64,000 nucleotides of DNA from Gammaproteobacteria bacterium (GTDB lineage Bacteria; Pseudomonadota; Gammaproteobacteria; Nevskiales; Nevskiaceae), in assembly GCA_026398815.1 (NCBI GenBank), contig JAPLSA010000028.1:124001-188000 (forward strand), in the 5' to 3' direction. How positions within the stretch are numbered: position 1 is the stretch's first letter; each line of letters begins with the position of its first letter. The notes beneath the pieces were generated by a model, which saw only the letters and a list, made by a program, of their open reading frames with translations, was not told the DNA's origin and did no database searches. Shown here piece by piece: positions 18,511 to 24,153 of this stretch. A program made the translations under genes and the position numbers.

Positions 18511-19530
18511 ATGACCACCGATTCCGACCTGCAGGACTGGCGCACCCAGGCGCTGAAGATCGAGACCGAAGTGAACCGTGCGGTGATCGGCGCGCCGGCC
18601 ACCGTGCGGCTGATCAACATCGCGCTGTTCGCCCGCGGCCATGTGCTGCTGGAAGGCGATGTCGGCGTCGGCAAGACCACCGTGCTGCGCGCCTTCTCGC
18701 GCGCCATCGGCGGCGATTTCGAGAGAGTCGAAGGCACGGTCGACCTGATGCCGGGCGACCTGATCTACCACACGTATGTCGACGAGCACGGCAAGCCGCG
18801 CATCGACCCCGGCCCGCTGCTGCGCCATGGCGAGCGGCTGGTGACCTTCTTCTTCAACGAGATCAACCGCGCCCGGCCGCAGGTGCAGTCGCTGCTGCTG
18901 CGGGCGATGGCCGAGCGCACGGTCAGCGCCTTCAACCGCGAATACCGCTTCCCGCACATGACGGTGTTCGCCGATCGCAACAAGATCGAGCGCGAGGAAA
19001 CCTTCGAGCTGGCCTCCGCCGCTCGCGACCGCTTCATGTTCGAGCTGCGCATGGCCACGCCTTCGGATCAGGAGATCCGCCGCCAGCTCGCCTTCAACCC
19101 GAACTTCCACGACACCGACCGGCTGATCGAAAGCGTGCCGGCCGGCCTGCTGCCCTGGGAGAAGCTCAACGAGATCGGCGCCGGCATCCAGGCCTCGGTG
19201 CGCGCCAGCGAAGCGCTGGAGCAGTACGTGCTCGCGCTCTGGGAAGCCACCCGCAACCCGCTGGCCGCCGGCGTGCAGCTCGAAAGCGTCGACATGCACC
19301 GGCTGATCCTGGCCGGCGCCAGCCCGCGCGGCGTGTCGGCGCTGGTGCGCGCCGCTAGAGTCGTCGCCTGGCTGGCCGGGCGGGACTACCTGACGCCGGA
19401 CGACATCCAGGCGGTGTTCCCGTCGACGATGGTCCACCGCGTGTTCTTCACGCCTGTCTACGAACTGCGCCGCGCCGAACTGGCCGATGCGCTGGTCGCA
19501 CAGATCCTCGAACGGGTGCCGGCGCCGTGA
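18511..19530 (+). CDS. mxaR: MoxR-family AAA+ ATPase, MxaR-like
   Basis: 339 residues from the ATG at 18511; the frame stays open upstream but the protein similarity starts here. Walker A is GDVGVGKTT, Walker B is FFFNEINRA as in MoxR proteins, and the C-terminal helical lid follows. It is the first of six genes that overlap or abut in the order MoxR ATPase, DUF58 protein, MxaA-like, vWA, MxaK-like, vWA. That order is the mxaRSACKL segment of methylotroph methanol-oxidation clusters, where the products help mature PQQ methanol dehydrogenase. There is no clear ribosome-binding site; coupling to an upstream short frame is possible. Confidence 0.85.
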   Translation: MTTDSDLQDWRTQALKIETEVNRAVIGAPATVRLINIALFARGHVLLEGDVGVGKTTVLRAFSRAIGGDFERVEGTVDLMPGDLIYHTYVDEHGKPRIDPGPLLRHGERLVTFFFNEINRARPQVQSLLLRAMAERTVSAFNREYRFPHMTVFADRNKIEREETFELASAARDRFMFELRMATPSDQEIRRQLAFNPNFHDTDRLIESVPAGLLPWEKLNEIGAGIQASVRASEALEQYVLALWEATRNPLAAGVQLESVDMHRLILAGASPRGVSALVRAARVVAWLAGRDYLTPDDIQAVFPSTMVHRVFFTPVYELRRAELADALVAQILERVPAP

Positions 19531-19546
19531 TCGCGCCCTGCCGCCG

Positions 19547-20434
19547 ATGAGCAGCCCGGCCACCGATTTCTACTACCGCCTGCCGACCCGCGCCGGCACC
19601 CAGCGGCCGGGTTCGCATCCCGGCACCAGCCACGGCAACGGCCAGGAATTCGTCACCCACGCAACCCTGTTCAGCCGCCCCGATCCGCGCCGTCTCGATG
19701 TCCGCGCCAGCTTGCGCGACGTCCGAGGCGACTGGCTGGTGCGAGTGATGCGCCAGCGCGTCGGCGTGCCGGTGTGGCTGGCGGCCGATGTCTCGGCGTC
19801 GATGGTCTTCGGCGCCGCGCGAACCAAGCTCGCAGTGCTCGCCGACCTGGCGCGGGCGATCGGCGCCAGCGCCACCCGGGTCGGCGATGCCGCCGGCATG
19901 GTCGCCTTCGACAGCCGCGAGCGCGAAGACCTGCAGGTGCCGGCCAGCATGAGCCGCGGCATCGGCCACGTGATGGCGGCCGCGCTCGACGATCCGCAGC
20001 GGGCCGTGCAGGCGGAGGTCGGCGAGCGCCACGCCGGCGATCCGGTCGATGGCCTTGCTGCCGCGCTGCGGGCGCTGGCCGGCCGTCAATGCCTGGTGTT
20101 CCTGGCCTCCGATTTCCATTTCCCGCTGGCCCGGCTCGACGAGGCGCTGGACCCGCTGTCGCGCGCCTTCATCGTGCCGGTGATCATCTGGGACCCGGCC
20201 GAGATCGAACCGCCGCCGCTGAACGGGCTGGCGTCCTTGCGCGATGCCGAATCGGCAGCGCGCAGCGCGATCTGGCTGCGGCCGCGCCTGCGCGCGCAAT
20301 GGCGCGATGCGGTTGCCGAACGGCGCGCCACGCTGGCCGCGTACTTCGCCAATCGCGGCCTGCGGCCGTTCTGGGTGCAGGGCGCGTTCGACGCCGACGC
20401 GATGTCCGAATACTTCTTCGAGGCCAACGCATGA
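19547..20434 (+). CDS. mxaS: DUF58/vWA-like protein, MxaS-like
   Basis: 295 residues, soluble. It has a degenerate DUF58 region and a vWA-type metal site (AADVSASM, DxSxS intact), then CLVFLASDFHFPLARL. MxaS partners the MoxR ATPase in the mxa cluster, and MoxR-vWA pairs generally act as metal-cofactor or complex-assembly chaperones. The start is 16 bases after mxaR; the stop overlaps mxaA (ATGA). Confidence 0.83.
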   Translation: MSSPATDFYYRLPTRAGTQRPGSHPGTSHGNGQEFVTHATLFSRPDPRRLDVRASLRDVRGDWLVRVMRQRVGVPVWLAADVSASMVFGAARTKLAVLADLARAIGASATRVGDAAGMVAFDSREREDLQVPASMSRGIGHVMAAALDDPQRAVQAEVGERHAGDPVDGLAAALRALAGRQCLVFLASDFHFPLARLDEALDPLSRAFIVPVIIWDPAEIEPPPLNGLASLRDAESAARSAIWLRPRLRAQWRDAVAERRATLAAYFANRGLRPFWVQGAFDADAMSEYFFEANA

Positions 20435-21591
20435 GGCGCGCGGCCGTCATCGCGCTGTTGCTGCTGGCGCTGCCGCTGGCACATGCGCAGGAGCCGCCGA
20501 ACCGCGACTACAAGCCGCCGTTCAAGGGCGAGGCGGTGTTCGATCCGCGCCCGGCCAAACGCGCCGCCCGCGAAGCCGAAGCGGCACGGCTGAAGGCCGA
20601 GGAAGACGCGCGCATCCAGGCGCTGACCGTCGACAACCCGCTGAACGGCCCACCGCCATCGCAGCAGGAACCGGCCGCTGCGCCGACACCGGACAGCAGC
20701 GATGCGATGCCGGTCGCCGAAGGCTATGTGCCCGATGCCGCAGCCGTGCAGGGCTATGTCGCGCCGCCGCCGCCACCCGCCGTGGTGGTGCCGGTGCGCT
20801 CGCCGGTCGACAACCCCCGCCCGTACGGCTATCTGGTCGGCGACACGCTGACCCAGCGCGTGCAGCTGACGGTGGACGGCAAACCGGTCGAGCTGACCGA
20901 GCTGCCGCGCAAGGACCGCTTCGGCGTCTGGATCAGCCGCCGCAGCGCGCGCATCGACCGCGATCCGGACGGCAGCCGCTGGCTGGCGATGGAGTACCAG
21001 ATCATCAATGCCTCCAAGGACGTCGATGTCATCAGCCTGCCGAAGCTGAAGCTGCGCACCACGACAGCCGATGTCTTCATCGAGGTCGCCGACTGGCCGA
21101 TCACGGTCGGCGCGATCACCGCGAGCCTGGTCCGCAACCAGGGCGGGCTGCTGCCGCTGCAGCCGGACCGGCCGGCGCCGACCGTTGCCCTCGCACCGAT
21201 CCGCCACCAGCTGCATCTGGCGCTGGGCGGCCTCGCCGCAACCCTGGTGCTATGGCTCGGCTGGTGGCGCTGGCGGGAATGGCGGGCGTCGGCGCAGCTG
21301 CCGTTCGGCCGCGCGCGCCGCCGGCTCGGCCGTGTCGACGCGCAATCAGACGAAGCCTGGCGGCTGCTGCATCAGGCCTTCGATGCCAGCGCCGGGCGCG
21401 CTATCCAGCCCGGCACCCTGGCCCTGCTGTTCCGCGCGCGGCCGGAGTTCGAGGCGGCACGCGCGTCGATCGAGCGCTTCTACGCCGAATCGGCAGCGCG
21501 CTTCTTCGGTGGCCGGCCGGCTGCGGATGGCGTGTCGCTGCGCGCGCTGTGCGCCGAGCTGCGGGCCATCGAGCGCGCGCACGAACGATGA
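20431..21591 (+). CDS. mxaA: MxaA-like exported/membrane-anchored protein
   Basis: 386 residues. A signal peptide (ALLLLALPLAHAQ) leads into a charged segment, then a Pro/Ala-rich linker with a run of five prolines near residue 110. The folded part starts at about residue 128 (YGYLVGDTLTQRVQLTVDG). One membrane helix (LALGGLAATLVLWLGWW) lies near residue 265, followed by a ~100-residue cytoplasmic tail. In methylotrophs MxaA is needed for active, Ca-loaded methanol dehydrogenase. Assignment rests on position plus layout; sequence identity to MxaA could not be tested. Confidence 0.75.
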   Translation: MRRAAVIALLLLALPLAHAQEPPNRDYKPPFKGEAVFDPRPAKRAAREAEAARLKAEEDARIQALTVDNPLNGPPPSQQEPAAAPTPDSSDAMPVAEGYVPDAAAVQGYVAPPPPPAVVVPVRSPVDNPRPYGYLVGDTLTQRVQLTVDGKPVELTELPRKDRFGVWISRRSARIDRDPDGSRWLAMEYQIINASKDVDVISLPKLKLRTTTADVFIEVADWPITVGAITASLVRNQGGLLPLQPDRPAPTVALAPIRHQLHLALGGLAATLVLWLGWWRWREWRASAQLPFGRARRRLGRVDAQSDEAWRLLHQAFDASAGRAIQPGTLALLFRARPEFEAARASIERFYAESAARFFGGRPAADGVSLRALCAELRAIERAHER

Positions 21592-22604
21592 TCGACGGGC
21601 AAAACCTGCCGCTGGATTTCGCCATGCCCTGGGCGCTGCTGCTGTTGCCGCTGGCGGCACTGCCGCTGCTGCGCCGGCGGCGCGAGGAACTGGCGTTCCC
21701 GTCGCTGGCCTGGCTGCCGAAGGACCGCCTGGGCATCTGGGTGGAGCGCTTCGGCCGGGCAGCGGCGGTGATCGCGATCCTGGCCACGGTGCTGGCGCTG
21801 GCGCGGCCGGGGCGGCCGGAGTGGGATGTCGAGCGGATCGGCCGCGGCGCGGAAATCGTCGTGCTGTTCGACTCGTCTTTAAGCATGGACGACGAGATGC
21901 TGGCGCGCGGCGCGCATCCCAAGCGCCGCCGCGACAGCCCGCTGCGCAAGCGCAACATCGCGCGCCAGGCGCTGTCGGCGTTCGTCGAGCGGCGGCCGGC
22001 GGATCGCTTCTCGCTGTTGATGTTCGGTGCTGCGCCGTTCCGGGTGACGCCGTTCTCGCAGTCCCCGGAAGTGATCCAGGCCGGCATCACCGCCGCCGGC
22101 ATTTCCAACGGCCTGCCGGGCACCGATCTCGGCCGCGGCCTGATGGCGGCGATCGAGCAGTTCAATGGCCGCGCCTACACCGGCAGCCGGGTGATCCTGC
22201 TGGTGTCGGACGGCGCCGCCGAGATCGACGAGATCACCCGCCAGAACATCCGCAACGGCATGCGCCAGAACCGCATCGCGCTGAACTGGATCTACCTGCG
22301 CTCGGTGAACTGGCCGCGGCTCGATTCGGAGAAGGAGCCGGAAGCGGTCGGCCTGATCACCGATGTCGCGATGCACCGCTTCTTCAAGACCCTGCCGACC
22401 ACCTACAAGGTCTACGAGGCGGAAAGCCCGGACGCGGTGGCGAAGGCGGTGGCCGACATCGAGCGCGCCCAGAACCTGCCGCTGGAATACAGGGAACGGA
22501 TTCCGCGCCGCGACTTCACGCCGTACTTCTACCTGACCGCGATCCTCGCCTGTCTGGGCCTGCTCGCCCATCGCGCCACCACCGTGCGGAGCTTTTCGCG
22601 ATGA
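21588..22604 (+). CDS. mxaC: von Willebrand factor A membrane protein, MxaC-like
   Basis: 338 residues. Two N-terminal hydrophobic segments (ALLLLPLAALPLL and AAAVIAILATVLALA) precede a vWA domain with an intact metal site (LFDSSLSMDDE, DxSxS) and SDGAAEID. A C-terminal membrane helix follows (YFYLTAILACLGLLA). This is the BatA/MxaC layout. The start overlaps the mxaA stop and the stop overlaps the mxaK start (both ATGA). Confidence 0.83.
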   Translation: MIDGQNLPLDFAMPWALLLLPLAALPLLRRRREELAFPSLAWLPKDRLGIWVERFGRAAAVIAILATVLALARPGRPEWDVERIGRGAEIVVLFDSSLSMDDEMLARGAHPKRRRDSPLRKRNIARQALSAFVERRPADRFSLLMFGAAPFRVTPFSQSPEVIQAGITAAGISNGLPGTDLGRGLMAAIEQFNGRAYTGSRVILLVSDGAAEIDEITRQNIRNGMRQNRIALNWIYLRSVNWPRLDSEKEPEAVGLITDVAMHRFFKTLPTTYKVYEAESPDAVAKAVADIERAQNLPLEYRERIPRRDFTPYFYLTAILACLGLLAHRATTVRSFSR

Positions 22605-23200
22605 CACGCGCCCCGATCCATCTCGCCTTCGGTGTGGTTTCGCTGGTGCTGGCCGGCACCGCACTGACCTTGGGCCTGCGCCTGCAGGCCGCCGAACGCG
22701 CCAATGCGGTGATCGCCGATGCAGCCGCCTTTGCCGCCGAGGCCGCACGGGTGAAAGCGGCCGGCGAGGCCGCCGGGCAGCCCGCGACGCTGGCGCCGCC
22801 GACGCTCGACACACCCGAAGCGGCGCTGGCCTTCGCGCTGGCGCTGGCCCACAACGATTCAGGCGGCGGCGATTACGACCGGGCGCTGAAAGCGCTGGAA
22901 ACGCTGTCGCAATCGCCGCGCGACGACATCCGCCTGATCGCCCGCTACGACCTCGGCAACCTGCACCTGCGGCAGGCGCGGCTGATCGGCGACGAGCAGG
23001 TGGCCAAGGGCCGGACCCTGGTCGAACTCGGCAAGCAGGCCTACCGGCGCGTGCTCGACGAGGACCCGCAGCACTGGCAGGCGCGCTACAACCTCGAACG
23101 GGCGCTGTGGCTGGAGCCGGAAGCCGACGACGGCAATGTCGAAGTGACGCCGCCGCCGGCCGTCGAACGTCCGAACGGCGACAAGCCCGAGCTGCCGTGA
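22601..23200 (+). CDS. mxaK: MxaK-like membrane-anchored protein
   Basis: 199 residues. One N-terminal membrane anchor (GVVSLVLAGTALTLGLRL) is followed by an Ala-rich segment and a helical TPR-like region (DYDRALKALETL ... ARYDLGNLHLRQA ... YRRVLDEDPQHWQARYNLERAL). Its position between two vWA genes is the mxaK position, and size fits the family. Adaptor or scaffold in the maturation complex is inference. ATGA/GTGA overlaps on both sides. Confidence 0.8.
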   Translation: MTRAPIHLAFGVVSLVLAGTALTLGLRLQAAERANAVIADAAAFAAEAARVKAAGEAAGQPATLAPPTLDTPEAALAFALALAHNDSGGGDYDRALKALETLSQSPRDDIRLIARYDLGNLHLRQARLIGDEQVAKGRTLVELGKQAYRRVLDEDPQHWQARYNLERALWLEPEADDGNVEVTPPPAVERPNGDKPELP

Positions 23201-24153
23201 GCGCCACCCGCCCGACCGATGACGGCCGGCGCAGCGGCGGCGTGCTTGCCTACGTCGGCAACGCGCTCGGTGGCGGCGGCTGGCTGCTGCTGCCGGTGAT
23301 CGCCCTGCTCGCCGCCGCAGTCTGGCTGCCGAAGCTGCCGGTGACCCGCGACGCCTACGATCATCTGGTGATCTTCGACGTCTCGCAGAGCATGAATGTC
23401 GAGGACTATCGGATCGGCGATCGCGTGGTCAGCCGCCTGCAATTCGCCAAGCACGCGGTCGCCGAAGCGCTGAAGAACCCGAAGTGCGATACCCGGATCG
23501 GCTGGGCAGTGTTCGCCGGCCGCAAGATCGTCACCCTGCTGGCGCCGGTCGAGGTCTGCCGCAACTACAGCGCGCTGCTCGCCGCGCTCGACAACATCGA
23601 CAGCCGCATGGCCTTCGAGCGGTCCAGCGAAATCCAGGAAGGCCTGCTGTGGACGATGACCAATGTCCGCGACCTGAAACCGCTGCCGACGGTGATCTTC
23701 ATGACCGACGGCCACGAAGCACCGCCGCTGCCGCCGGAACGGATCCGCAGCTACGACGGCGCGCTCGGCGAAGTACGCGGCTGGGTGGTCGGCGTCGGCG
23801 GGCTGCAGCCGCAGCCGATCCCGAAATCCGATCAGGACGGTCGCCGCATCGGCTTCTGGCGCGCCACCGAAGTGCTGCAATGGGGCGGCGCGGCCAATGT
23901 CACCGGCGGCACCCGCCACGAGCACCTGTCGGAACTGCGCGAGGCGCATCTGCAGCAGCTGGCGAAGAACGTCGGCTTCGGCTACACGCGGCTGATCGAC
24001 ACGCAGTCGCTGGACGCTGCGTTGCACGACCGCGAACTGGCCCATCCGGCGGTCGTCGAAACCGATCTGCGCTGGATTCCGGGCCTGCTGGCGCTGCTGC
24101 TGCTGGGCTGGTGGTTCCGGCCGGATCAAAGGCCGGCGCGACAGGCCGGCTGA
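23197..24153 (+). CDS. mxaL: von Willebrand factor A membrane protein, MxaL-like
   Basis: 318 residues from a GTG overlapping the mxaK stop. An N-terminal membrane helix (WLLLPVIALLAAAVWL) precedes a vWA domain with an intact metal site (VIFDVSQSMNVED) and TVIFMTDGHEAPPLP. A C-terminal helix (LLALLLLGWW) returns it to the membrane. It is the last gene of the cluster; mxaD and the dehydrogenase genes mxaFJGI do not follow, and gmhB is convergent 19 bases away. Confidence 0.83.
   Translation: MSATRPTDDGRRSGGVLAYVGNALGGGGWLLLPVIALLAAAVWLPKLPVTRDAYDHLVIFDVSQSMNVEDYRIGDRVVSRLQFAKHAVAEALKNPKCDTRIGWAVFAGRKIVTLLAPVEVCRNYSALLAALDNIDSRMAFERSSEIQEGLLWTMTNVRDLKPLPTVIFMTDGHEAPPLPPERIRSYDGALGEVRGWVVGVGGLQPQPIPKSDQDGRRIGFWRATEVLQWGGAANVTGGTRHEHLSELREAHLQQLAKNVGFGYTRLIDTQSLDAALHDRELAHPAVVETDLRWIPGLLALLLLGWWFRPDQRPARQAG

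Follow-up and report, generated by a model that had tools for sequence, protein, structure and literature searches.

The 64,000-nucleotide stretch of DNA analyzed here (the window; positions 124001-188000 of contig C28, JAPLSA010000028.1, assembly GCA_026398815.1) carries a six-gene operon with the order mxaR-S-A-C-K-L on its plus strand (18511-24153). Such a set forms part of the mxaFJGIRSACKLD cluster of the methanol dehydrogenase MxaFI, and calcium insertion has been attributed to MxaACKL (PMC6028718). The window operon has no adjoining mxaFJGI or mxaD, which raises the question of what enzyme it serves. We put a probability of about 0.6 on its being a MxaRSACKL lineage that is now the partner of the lanthanide-type methanol dehydrogenase XoxF, in a Nevskia-like bacterium in which MxaFI was not found. 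The comparisons that point to XoxF as the putative client are the position of the operon in phylogenetic trees, the linkage of related operons to xoxF, and the co-divergence of operon and XoxF.

Identity of the Operon

Six open reading frames (ORFs) were confirmed, tightly packed and all on the plus strand. The first (18511..19530, 339 aa) encodes an mxaR-like MoxR-family AAA+ ATPase (AAA_3, 1.3e-26; AAA_lid_2) with intact Walker A and B motifs, its sequence including the Walker A motif GDVGVGKT and FFFNEINRA. After a gap of 16 bp it is followed by the gene of an mxaS-like DUF58/vWA protein (19547..20434, 295 aa; DUF58, 2.1e-16) and then, through three junctions that overlap by 4 bp, by those of an mxaA-like protein with a signal-like N-terminus (20431..21591, 386 aa), an mxaC-like BatA-type vWA protein with membrane segments (21588..22604, 338 aa; VWA_2, 5.2e-10), and an mxaK-like protein with an N-terminal hydrophobic segment and a weak TPR-like region (22601..23200, 199 aa). 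The last gene, separated from mxaK by ~41 bp, encodes an mxaL-like vWA protein (~23242..24153, ~303 aa, the GTG start being uncertain; VWA_2, 8.5e-07), also with an N-terminal hydrophobic segment. The DxSxS sequence of the metal ion-dependent adhesion site (MIDAS) is present in S (as DVSAS), C, and L. The site is complete in MxaC, which has the MIDAS Thr, and MxaL has Ser, the same as in 100 of 103 rows.

The reference for phmmer comparison was L040, a genuine mxaF-J-G-I-R-S-A-C-K-L-D cluster from another genome of the same class. Each of the six genes was significantly homologous to its counterpart (R 3e-137, S 4e-50, A 1e-25, C 9e-53, K 9e-14, and L 2e-45), and order, strand, and overlaps agreed between the two loci well past chance. 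Together, these data confirmed that the operon is real, complete, and homologous to MxaRSACKL, with six homologous genes in order on one strand and intact AAA+ and MIDAS motifs. An initial annotation, made from the sequence of the window, had described an MxaRSACKL-type set with intact metal sites in the vWA proteins, and both statements held. Profile searches, which it had seen as a way to find MxaA or MxaK assigned to unrelated families, made no such assignment. Pfam had no family for MxaA and only a sub-threshold TPR match for K, and the MxaA proteins of two mxaF-linked sets (L040 and L042) likewise matched no Pfam family above the cut-off. Naming by profile was rejected as an approach, as neither Pfam nor NCBIfam gives an Mxa name to A, K, or L; their membership therefore rests on direct comparison with mxaF-adjoining operons. 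A promoter and terminator scan gave no signal above that of shuffled sequences.

Dehydrogenases of the Host Genome

The host genome comprises 4.30 Mb in 32 contigs and is 95.6% complete. Contig C28 had no match to a pyrroloquinoline quinone (PQQ) dehydrogenase, and the absence of methanol dehydrogenase genes noted in the initial annotation held for the window and its contig; it did not hold for the genome. Six places, none on C28, exceeded the TIGR03075 cut-off, and one of these, on contig C5, encodes XoxF. Its motif, FDEWDFDG, has Asp at what we take to be the lanthanide-type metal position (EWDxD, the Asp two residues after that of EWD). Its closest solved chains, 6dam and 6oc5, are both named as lanthanide-dependent XoxF, and the motif and these matches together identified the C5 gene as xoxF. 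Within ~10 kb of it are genes for a zinc alcohol dehydrogenase, which we read as glutathione-dependent formaldehyde dehydrogenase, for a one-haem cytochrome c (PF13442), and for an mxaJ-like protein (67 bits).

The annotation had also reported no PQQ gene nearby, which is correct for the surroundings of the operon; the genome does hold pqqB, pqqC, and pqqE, on contig C18, with a short ORF where pqqD would stand. A genome scan for mxaF, which the annotation had proposed, found none in the ~96% complete assembly by XoxF-query search and motif reading. At E <=1e-100 the query yielded only XoxF and one ExaF-like protein, and elsewhere it reaches MxaF at ~1e-180. Neither mxaFJGI linkage nor mxaF was therefore found for this operon, and we count the presence of XoxF with pqqB, pqqC, and pqqE, and MxaF not being found, in favor of XoxF.

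Two further dehydrogenases of this genome were observed to have Asp at the lanthanide position. One, on C18 with the pqq genes (L032 14607-16394), is a second lanthanide-type candidate with the motif NDHWDFDG, which we read as ExaF/PedH-like. The other, on C8 (L036 9087-11474), is a quinohaemoprotein-like PQQ dehydrogenase with one CxxCH and the motif NDNWDYDA.

Operon Phylogeny and Linkage

We collected 111 operon rows and dropped 23 without one of R, S, C, or L, including L091 (only R-S-A-C detected, with XoxF ~8.5 kb downstream) and the mxaF-linked L103. Seven genomes that came from both of two collections gave pairs of identical rows, five of these pairs being in the Nevskia group. Two unrooted trees were made, one of the 88 operons kept and one of 44 chosen operons under a mixture model. 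In both, a branch with a Shimodaira-Hasegawa-like approximate likelihood ratio test (SH-aLRT) support of 99 parted the window operon from every mxaF-linked operon (43 of the 88, and one more linked to both dehydrogenase types). The window operon, which shares its six genes, their order, and their overlaps with the mxaFJGIRSACKLD system, thus differs from it not only in its surroundings but also in its branch.

The window's side of the trees held 26 rows, four of them xoxF-linked and none mxaF-linked. Rows counted as unlinked (37 of the 88) are those with no dehydrogenase motif in the fetched flank; they include L041/L071, which by eye carry upstream mxaJ-, mxaG-, and mxaI-like genes, and L050, which has a downstream mxaD-like ORF. 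The xoxF label of G545 was set by hand, its xoxF sitting on the adjoining locus L228. Around the window stood 12 other Nevskia-type rows, then the sister G548, then Methyloversatilis L059/L060, and then G160 and G545; a second group on this side comprised L044/L066, L049, L072, and four alphaproteobacterial rows. The nearest relatives outside Nevskia were therefore the xoxF-linked L059/L060 and G548, which is unlinked and whose only XoxF/MxaF match is XoxF.

In L059 and L060, the operon lies directly upstream of xoxF (HDEWDFDG), with an mxaJ-like gene further on. The operon of L072 and its xoxF-G-J genes are convergent, and in G545 xoxF lies ~8 kb from R in divergent orientation, with pqqE and pqqC beyond it. 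Methyloversatilis thermotolerans has two sets, one (L059) directly upstream of tandem xoxF genes and a second (L268) in the order mxaF-J-G-I-R-S-C-K-L-D, in which A was not detected at the threshold used. We count these two sets, one per dehydrogenase type, in favor of an XoxF partnership. Methyloversatilis is thus close to the window genome in both operon and XoxF; it differs in that the window operon and xoxF are on separate contigs and in that M. thermotolerans possesses, in addition, mxaF and a set that goes with it.

Eleven genomes of the window's side (G160, G131, G198, G548, and G696-G702) were searched whole, and ten had an XoxF/MxaF-type match at E <=1e-100. The matches read were of the Asp type by motif, G198 having only fragments at contig starts, and MxaF was seen only in G696. 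Linkage to xoxF also occurred on the mxaF side of the trees, in G238 and G266 (in one run) and in G085 (xoxF after L), and so is not confined to one branch. The G238 and G266 clusters, from the window's own family, have the order xoxF-J-G-R-S-A-C-K-L in one direction (L164 4482-14766 and L165 4630-14355), with the xoxF motif FDQWDYDG, a long mxaJ-like protein of 551-569 aa, and a cytochrome, as if mxaFJGI had been replaced by xoxFJG. G236 and G245 have similar xoxF-J-G genes, and RSACKL was not in the fetched stretch.

Other arrangements were also observed among the operons collected. G160 (L043 5726-12069) has an extra MxaC-like vWA gene after L and no dehydrogenase nearby. The 3.0 Mb genome of G658 has three RSACKL copies (L231, L232, and L233); one is accompanied by mxaFJGI..D, and the fetched stretches around the other two show no dehydrogenase. 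In the case of L070 and L075, a metagenome-assembled genome (MAG) labelled Methyloversatilis universalis carries an operon and dehydrogenases that closely resemble their Methylocaldum sp. 14B counterparts, so that the label may be wrong.

Co-Divergence of the Operon and XoxF

Of 49 XoxF loci, near-copies having been omitted, six were lost to a motif filter and 43 were kept for a tree. This XoxF tree mirrored the operon tree, grouping Nevskia, G545, Methyloversatilis, G548, and the operon-less G592 (SH-aLRT 96), and G131, G698, G699, G700, and G702 (SH-aLRT 94). A third group, G703-G708 (SH-aLRT 100), corresponded to unlinked operons that form one clade on the mxaF side. Closest to the Nevskia XoxF was that of G545, followed by those of Methyloversatilis L059/L060.

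Host relatedness was gauged with rpoB, found in 17 of 22 genomes searched; 16 were used, G592 having no operon. Mantel r was 0.75 for operon and XoxF, 0.46 for operon and rpoB, and 0.43 for XoxF and rpoB. The partial correlation of operon and XoxF given rpoB was 0.69 (p 0.0001) and that of operon and rpoB given XoxF was 0.23 (p 0.02). After thinning to 12 genomes the Mantel values were 0.51 and 0.23, and operon and XoxF given rpoB still correlated (0.49, p 0.001). These data indicated that, with G545 as an imperfect fit, the operon and XoxF co-diverge beyond host relatedness, a pattern suggestive of XoxF being the client.

The groupings of operon and XoxF cross host lineages. Judged by rpoB, the Nevskia genome G247 stands closer to G703-G708 (0.72-0.73) than it does to M. 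thermotolerans (0.68). Its operon is nearer to that of M. thermotolerans (0.52 versus 0.39-0.41), and so is its XoxF (0.76 versus 0.64-0.68).

Distribution

In the order, a strong MxaC match (E < 1e-90) was present in 15 of 85 genomes and this XoxF type (E < 1e-250) in 16, or in 13 of the 15 operon genomes versus 3 of the 70 others. In the two operon genomes without this type, another kind of XoxF is encoded immediately upstream of the operon. Four of the 13 (G300, G301, G302, and G310) have an mxaF-linked operon, in G301 apparently so, judging by position. These counts include as operon-less G237, which has a weak MxaC match and mxaFJGI with R at a contig end. The pqqC gene was found in 14 of the 15 operon genomes versus 25 of the 70 others, 21 of which have both pqqC and a PQQ alcohol dehydrogenase. 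Fisher and hypergeometric p-values ignore relatedness and were not taken as proof.

A wider draw of 398 genomes from the phylum was also examined, with only the top few candidates per genome scored, so that its counts are lower bounds. The operon was present in 13 genomes. Four of these are mxaF-linked on reading (G392, G443, G658, and G695; the MxaF of G658 was missed in the draw search and found in later searches), three have XoxF with MxaF not seen (G000, G545, and G548), and the remaining six show a match of 48-49% at a distance of 6-7 kb from the operon.

Within the genus, operon and XoxF occur together in the same 9 of 18 genomes (9/9 versus 0/9). This co-occurrence was set aside as a statistic, since GmhB identity (83-100% in operon-bearing and 67-76% in operon-less genomes, with no match in G244) suggests one clade. 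The gmhB and glyS genes lie downstream of the operon in the window and in the five operon-bearing relatives read (L169, L170, L171, L238, and L239), and a photolyase gene is visible upstream in L170 and L171. In five of eight operon-less genomes (L285, L287, L288, L290, and L292), gmhB instead adjoins the same short ORF together with a second gene, a pattern consistent with a single gain or rearrangement in the clade that carries the operon. The closest named records are MAGs with the labels Nevskia sp., Lysobacteraceae, and Gammaproteobacteria; their MxaC is 82-97% identical.

Evidence Against an XoxF Partnership

Several observations weigh against XoxF as the partner. XoxF clearly works without such a set in some bacteria, and according to a 2024 review XoxF does not need mxaACKLD or mxaRSEH (PMC11845868). 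In M. extorquens AM1, lanthanum lowers mxaRSACKL along with mxaF (PMC6414531), and MxaR and MxaS drop with lanthanum in Methylocella silvestris (PMC9291206); the sets of these two bacteria belong to MxaF, however, and so the window's branch is not tested by those data. In the phylum draw, 25 of the 37 genomes with an XoxF/MxaF match had no operon, and in the order XoxF occurs without it in G171, G304, and G308. Since XoxF without an operon is common, the operon can be no more than a helper, and that in some lineages only. The window genome has its operon and xoxF apart, on C28 and C5, and the two are also unlinked in the tree sister G548. The XoxF of G545 is 0.85 identical to that of Nevskia and its operon only 0.43, and G592, of the same XoxF clade, has no operon. 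The MAG G701 carries the operon and no XoxF/MxaF match, and the sole match of G160 is a distant, odd XoxF (HDAWDYDE). The match within the genus amounts to about one event, and other clients within the same genome are possible.

Alternative Explanations

The best-surviving alternative, which we consider unlikely, is that the operon serves to load other PQQ alcohol dehydrogenases of the genome, one or several, with calcium, the role attributed to MxaACKL for MxaFI. Five such enzymes exceed the TIGR03075 cut-off, and in three of them the metal position is occupied by a residue other than Asp (NDAWDFSG, ADTWDYTA, and NDSWDWAG). However, such dehydrogenases (TIGR03075, E <=1e-100) also occur in 51 of the 70 operon-less genomes of the order, none of the 51 having XoxF or MxaF as its sole match, and in eight of the nine operon-less genomes of the genus, which we count in favor of XoxF. 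This argument is tempered by pqqC, found in only 25 of those 70 and four of those nine genomes, so that some of the dehydrogenases there may be unused. In a scan of named genomes with one peptide pattern, 80 of 263 confirmed loci were kept, and all PQQ dehydrogenases detected near the operon around these 80 were of the XoxF or MxaF type.

Less probable again is an operon of Bat-like envelope or general chaperone function, with no quinoprotein client and with only a family likeness to mxa. Bat operons combine BatA/BatB/BatC with MoxR and DUF58, and we know of no link between them and PQQ enzymes. The window operon has a similar domain make-up, no dehydrogenase is in the fetched flank in 37 of the 88 rows, and NCBIfam matched C to BatA and K to BatC, as did the MxaC profile a BatB structure. 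These matches are only weak, however, and generic vWA relatives score much lower (best ~1e-15). Moreover, an XoxF/MxaF-type match was present in all 13 operon genomes of the phylum draw versus at least 38 of 398 overall, and operon divergence tracks XoxF beyond rpoB.

A relic without present use, left after loss of mxaFJGI, is very improbable: mxaFJGI was not found and the related order genomes G300, G302, and G310 have a full mxa cluster, but the six genes and checked motifs are intact, half of the genus (9 of 18 genomes) retains the operon, and the mxaF-linked operons of the same order sit on another branch.

Comparison with Known Systems

RSACKL sets without mxaF are already in print, and the window operon is a variant of this arrangement. 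Extra mxaRSACKL sets away from mxaFJGI were described in Methylophilaceae (PMC4109929): Methylotenera JLW8 and 301 each have two copies, with xoxF present and mxaFJGI absent, and in strain 13 one RSACKL lies near xoxFJG. In the accessible text, a role with XoxF was not proposed; these are other hosts, and the window genome has a single copy. Mxa accessory genes without mxaFI are also reported in Sphaerotilus (PMC13300288). Transcripts of two XoxF genes, neighbors by locus tag, were reported in Methyloversatilis universalis (PMC5023235), the accessible text of which has no word starting with mxa or moxR. That of a Nevskia paper (PMC10654671) does not mention xoxF or mxaF. Our literature search, which left subscription papers mostly outside, returned no statement pairing an RSACKL branch with XoxF in the text it covered.

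Metal insertion by a MoxR ATPase and a vWA protein is established for NorQ and NorD, which act on nitric oxide (NO) reductase and need their Walker B and MIDAS residues (PMC9976466, PMC13036017). By analogy, we count this in favor of a loading role for the window operon, which shares a MoxR ATPase with a MIDAS vWA partner. NorQ/NorD differ in being two proteins rather than six and in inserting iron into NO reductase, with client and metal shown experimentally.

Predicted Topology and a Possible Mechanism

Simple hydropathy gave segments in C, K, and L and none in A. The AlphaFold2 model of MxaA (mean pLDDT, the predicted local distance difference test score, 79.7) has an Ig-like beta domain (~121-230), a long helix (~255-288), and a helical C-terminal domain; from the model, the long helix is probably transmembrane. 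The fold was abandoned as a lead to function, since Foldseek gave zero matches at E < 0.001 and VIA-align an Ig-like best Z of 7.2, within the range that the tool calls common, leaving a generic Ig-like domain only. Nevskia-type MxaA has a Pro/Ala/Glu-rich stretch of ~100 aa (residues ~25-120), and cleanly called MxaA proteins elsewhere have ~280-310 aa (other MxaA being trimmed in the alignment). In MxaL, two Cys (C82 and C106) are invariant across a nine-row alignment.

We propose that the MoxR AAA+ ring of MxaR and the DUF58/vWA protein MxaS would act in the cytoplasm on MxaA, MxaC, MxaK, and MxaL, which by predicted topology would be anchored in the membrane and expose their Ig-like and vWA (MIDAS) domains to the periplasm. 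An ATP-driven conformational change might then hold apo-XoxF open while a metal (a lanthanide, possibly calcium) and/or PQQ is loaded, as the NorQ/NorD analogy suggests. RSACKL could cooperate in this with XoxJ/MxaJ, which have been proposed to bind the partly folded apo-enzyme for PQQ and metal insertion (PMC12997753). A tentative and in our view doubtful extension is that this distinct mxaRSACKL branch would be a chaperone devoted to loading lanthanide (and/or PQQ) into XoxF, an ATP-driven maturation system for a rare-earth enzyme. The set would then have been exchanged between bacteria along with xoxF, and hosts that also have MxaFI would have retained it as a separate second copy.

Overall, the interpretation in the initial annotation was partly supported: its suggestion that the client is a different periplasmic quinoprotein may well hold, and the comparative evidence points to XoxF. 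How lanthanide and PQQ enter XoxF is not settled, and mxaRSACKL has been reserved for the calcium enzyme (PMC11845868). An XoxF-paired branch in genomes in which the calcium enzyme was not found makes XoxF loading directly testable. Such pairing could also account for the RSACKL copies without linkage that have been reported from methylotrophs since 2014.

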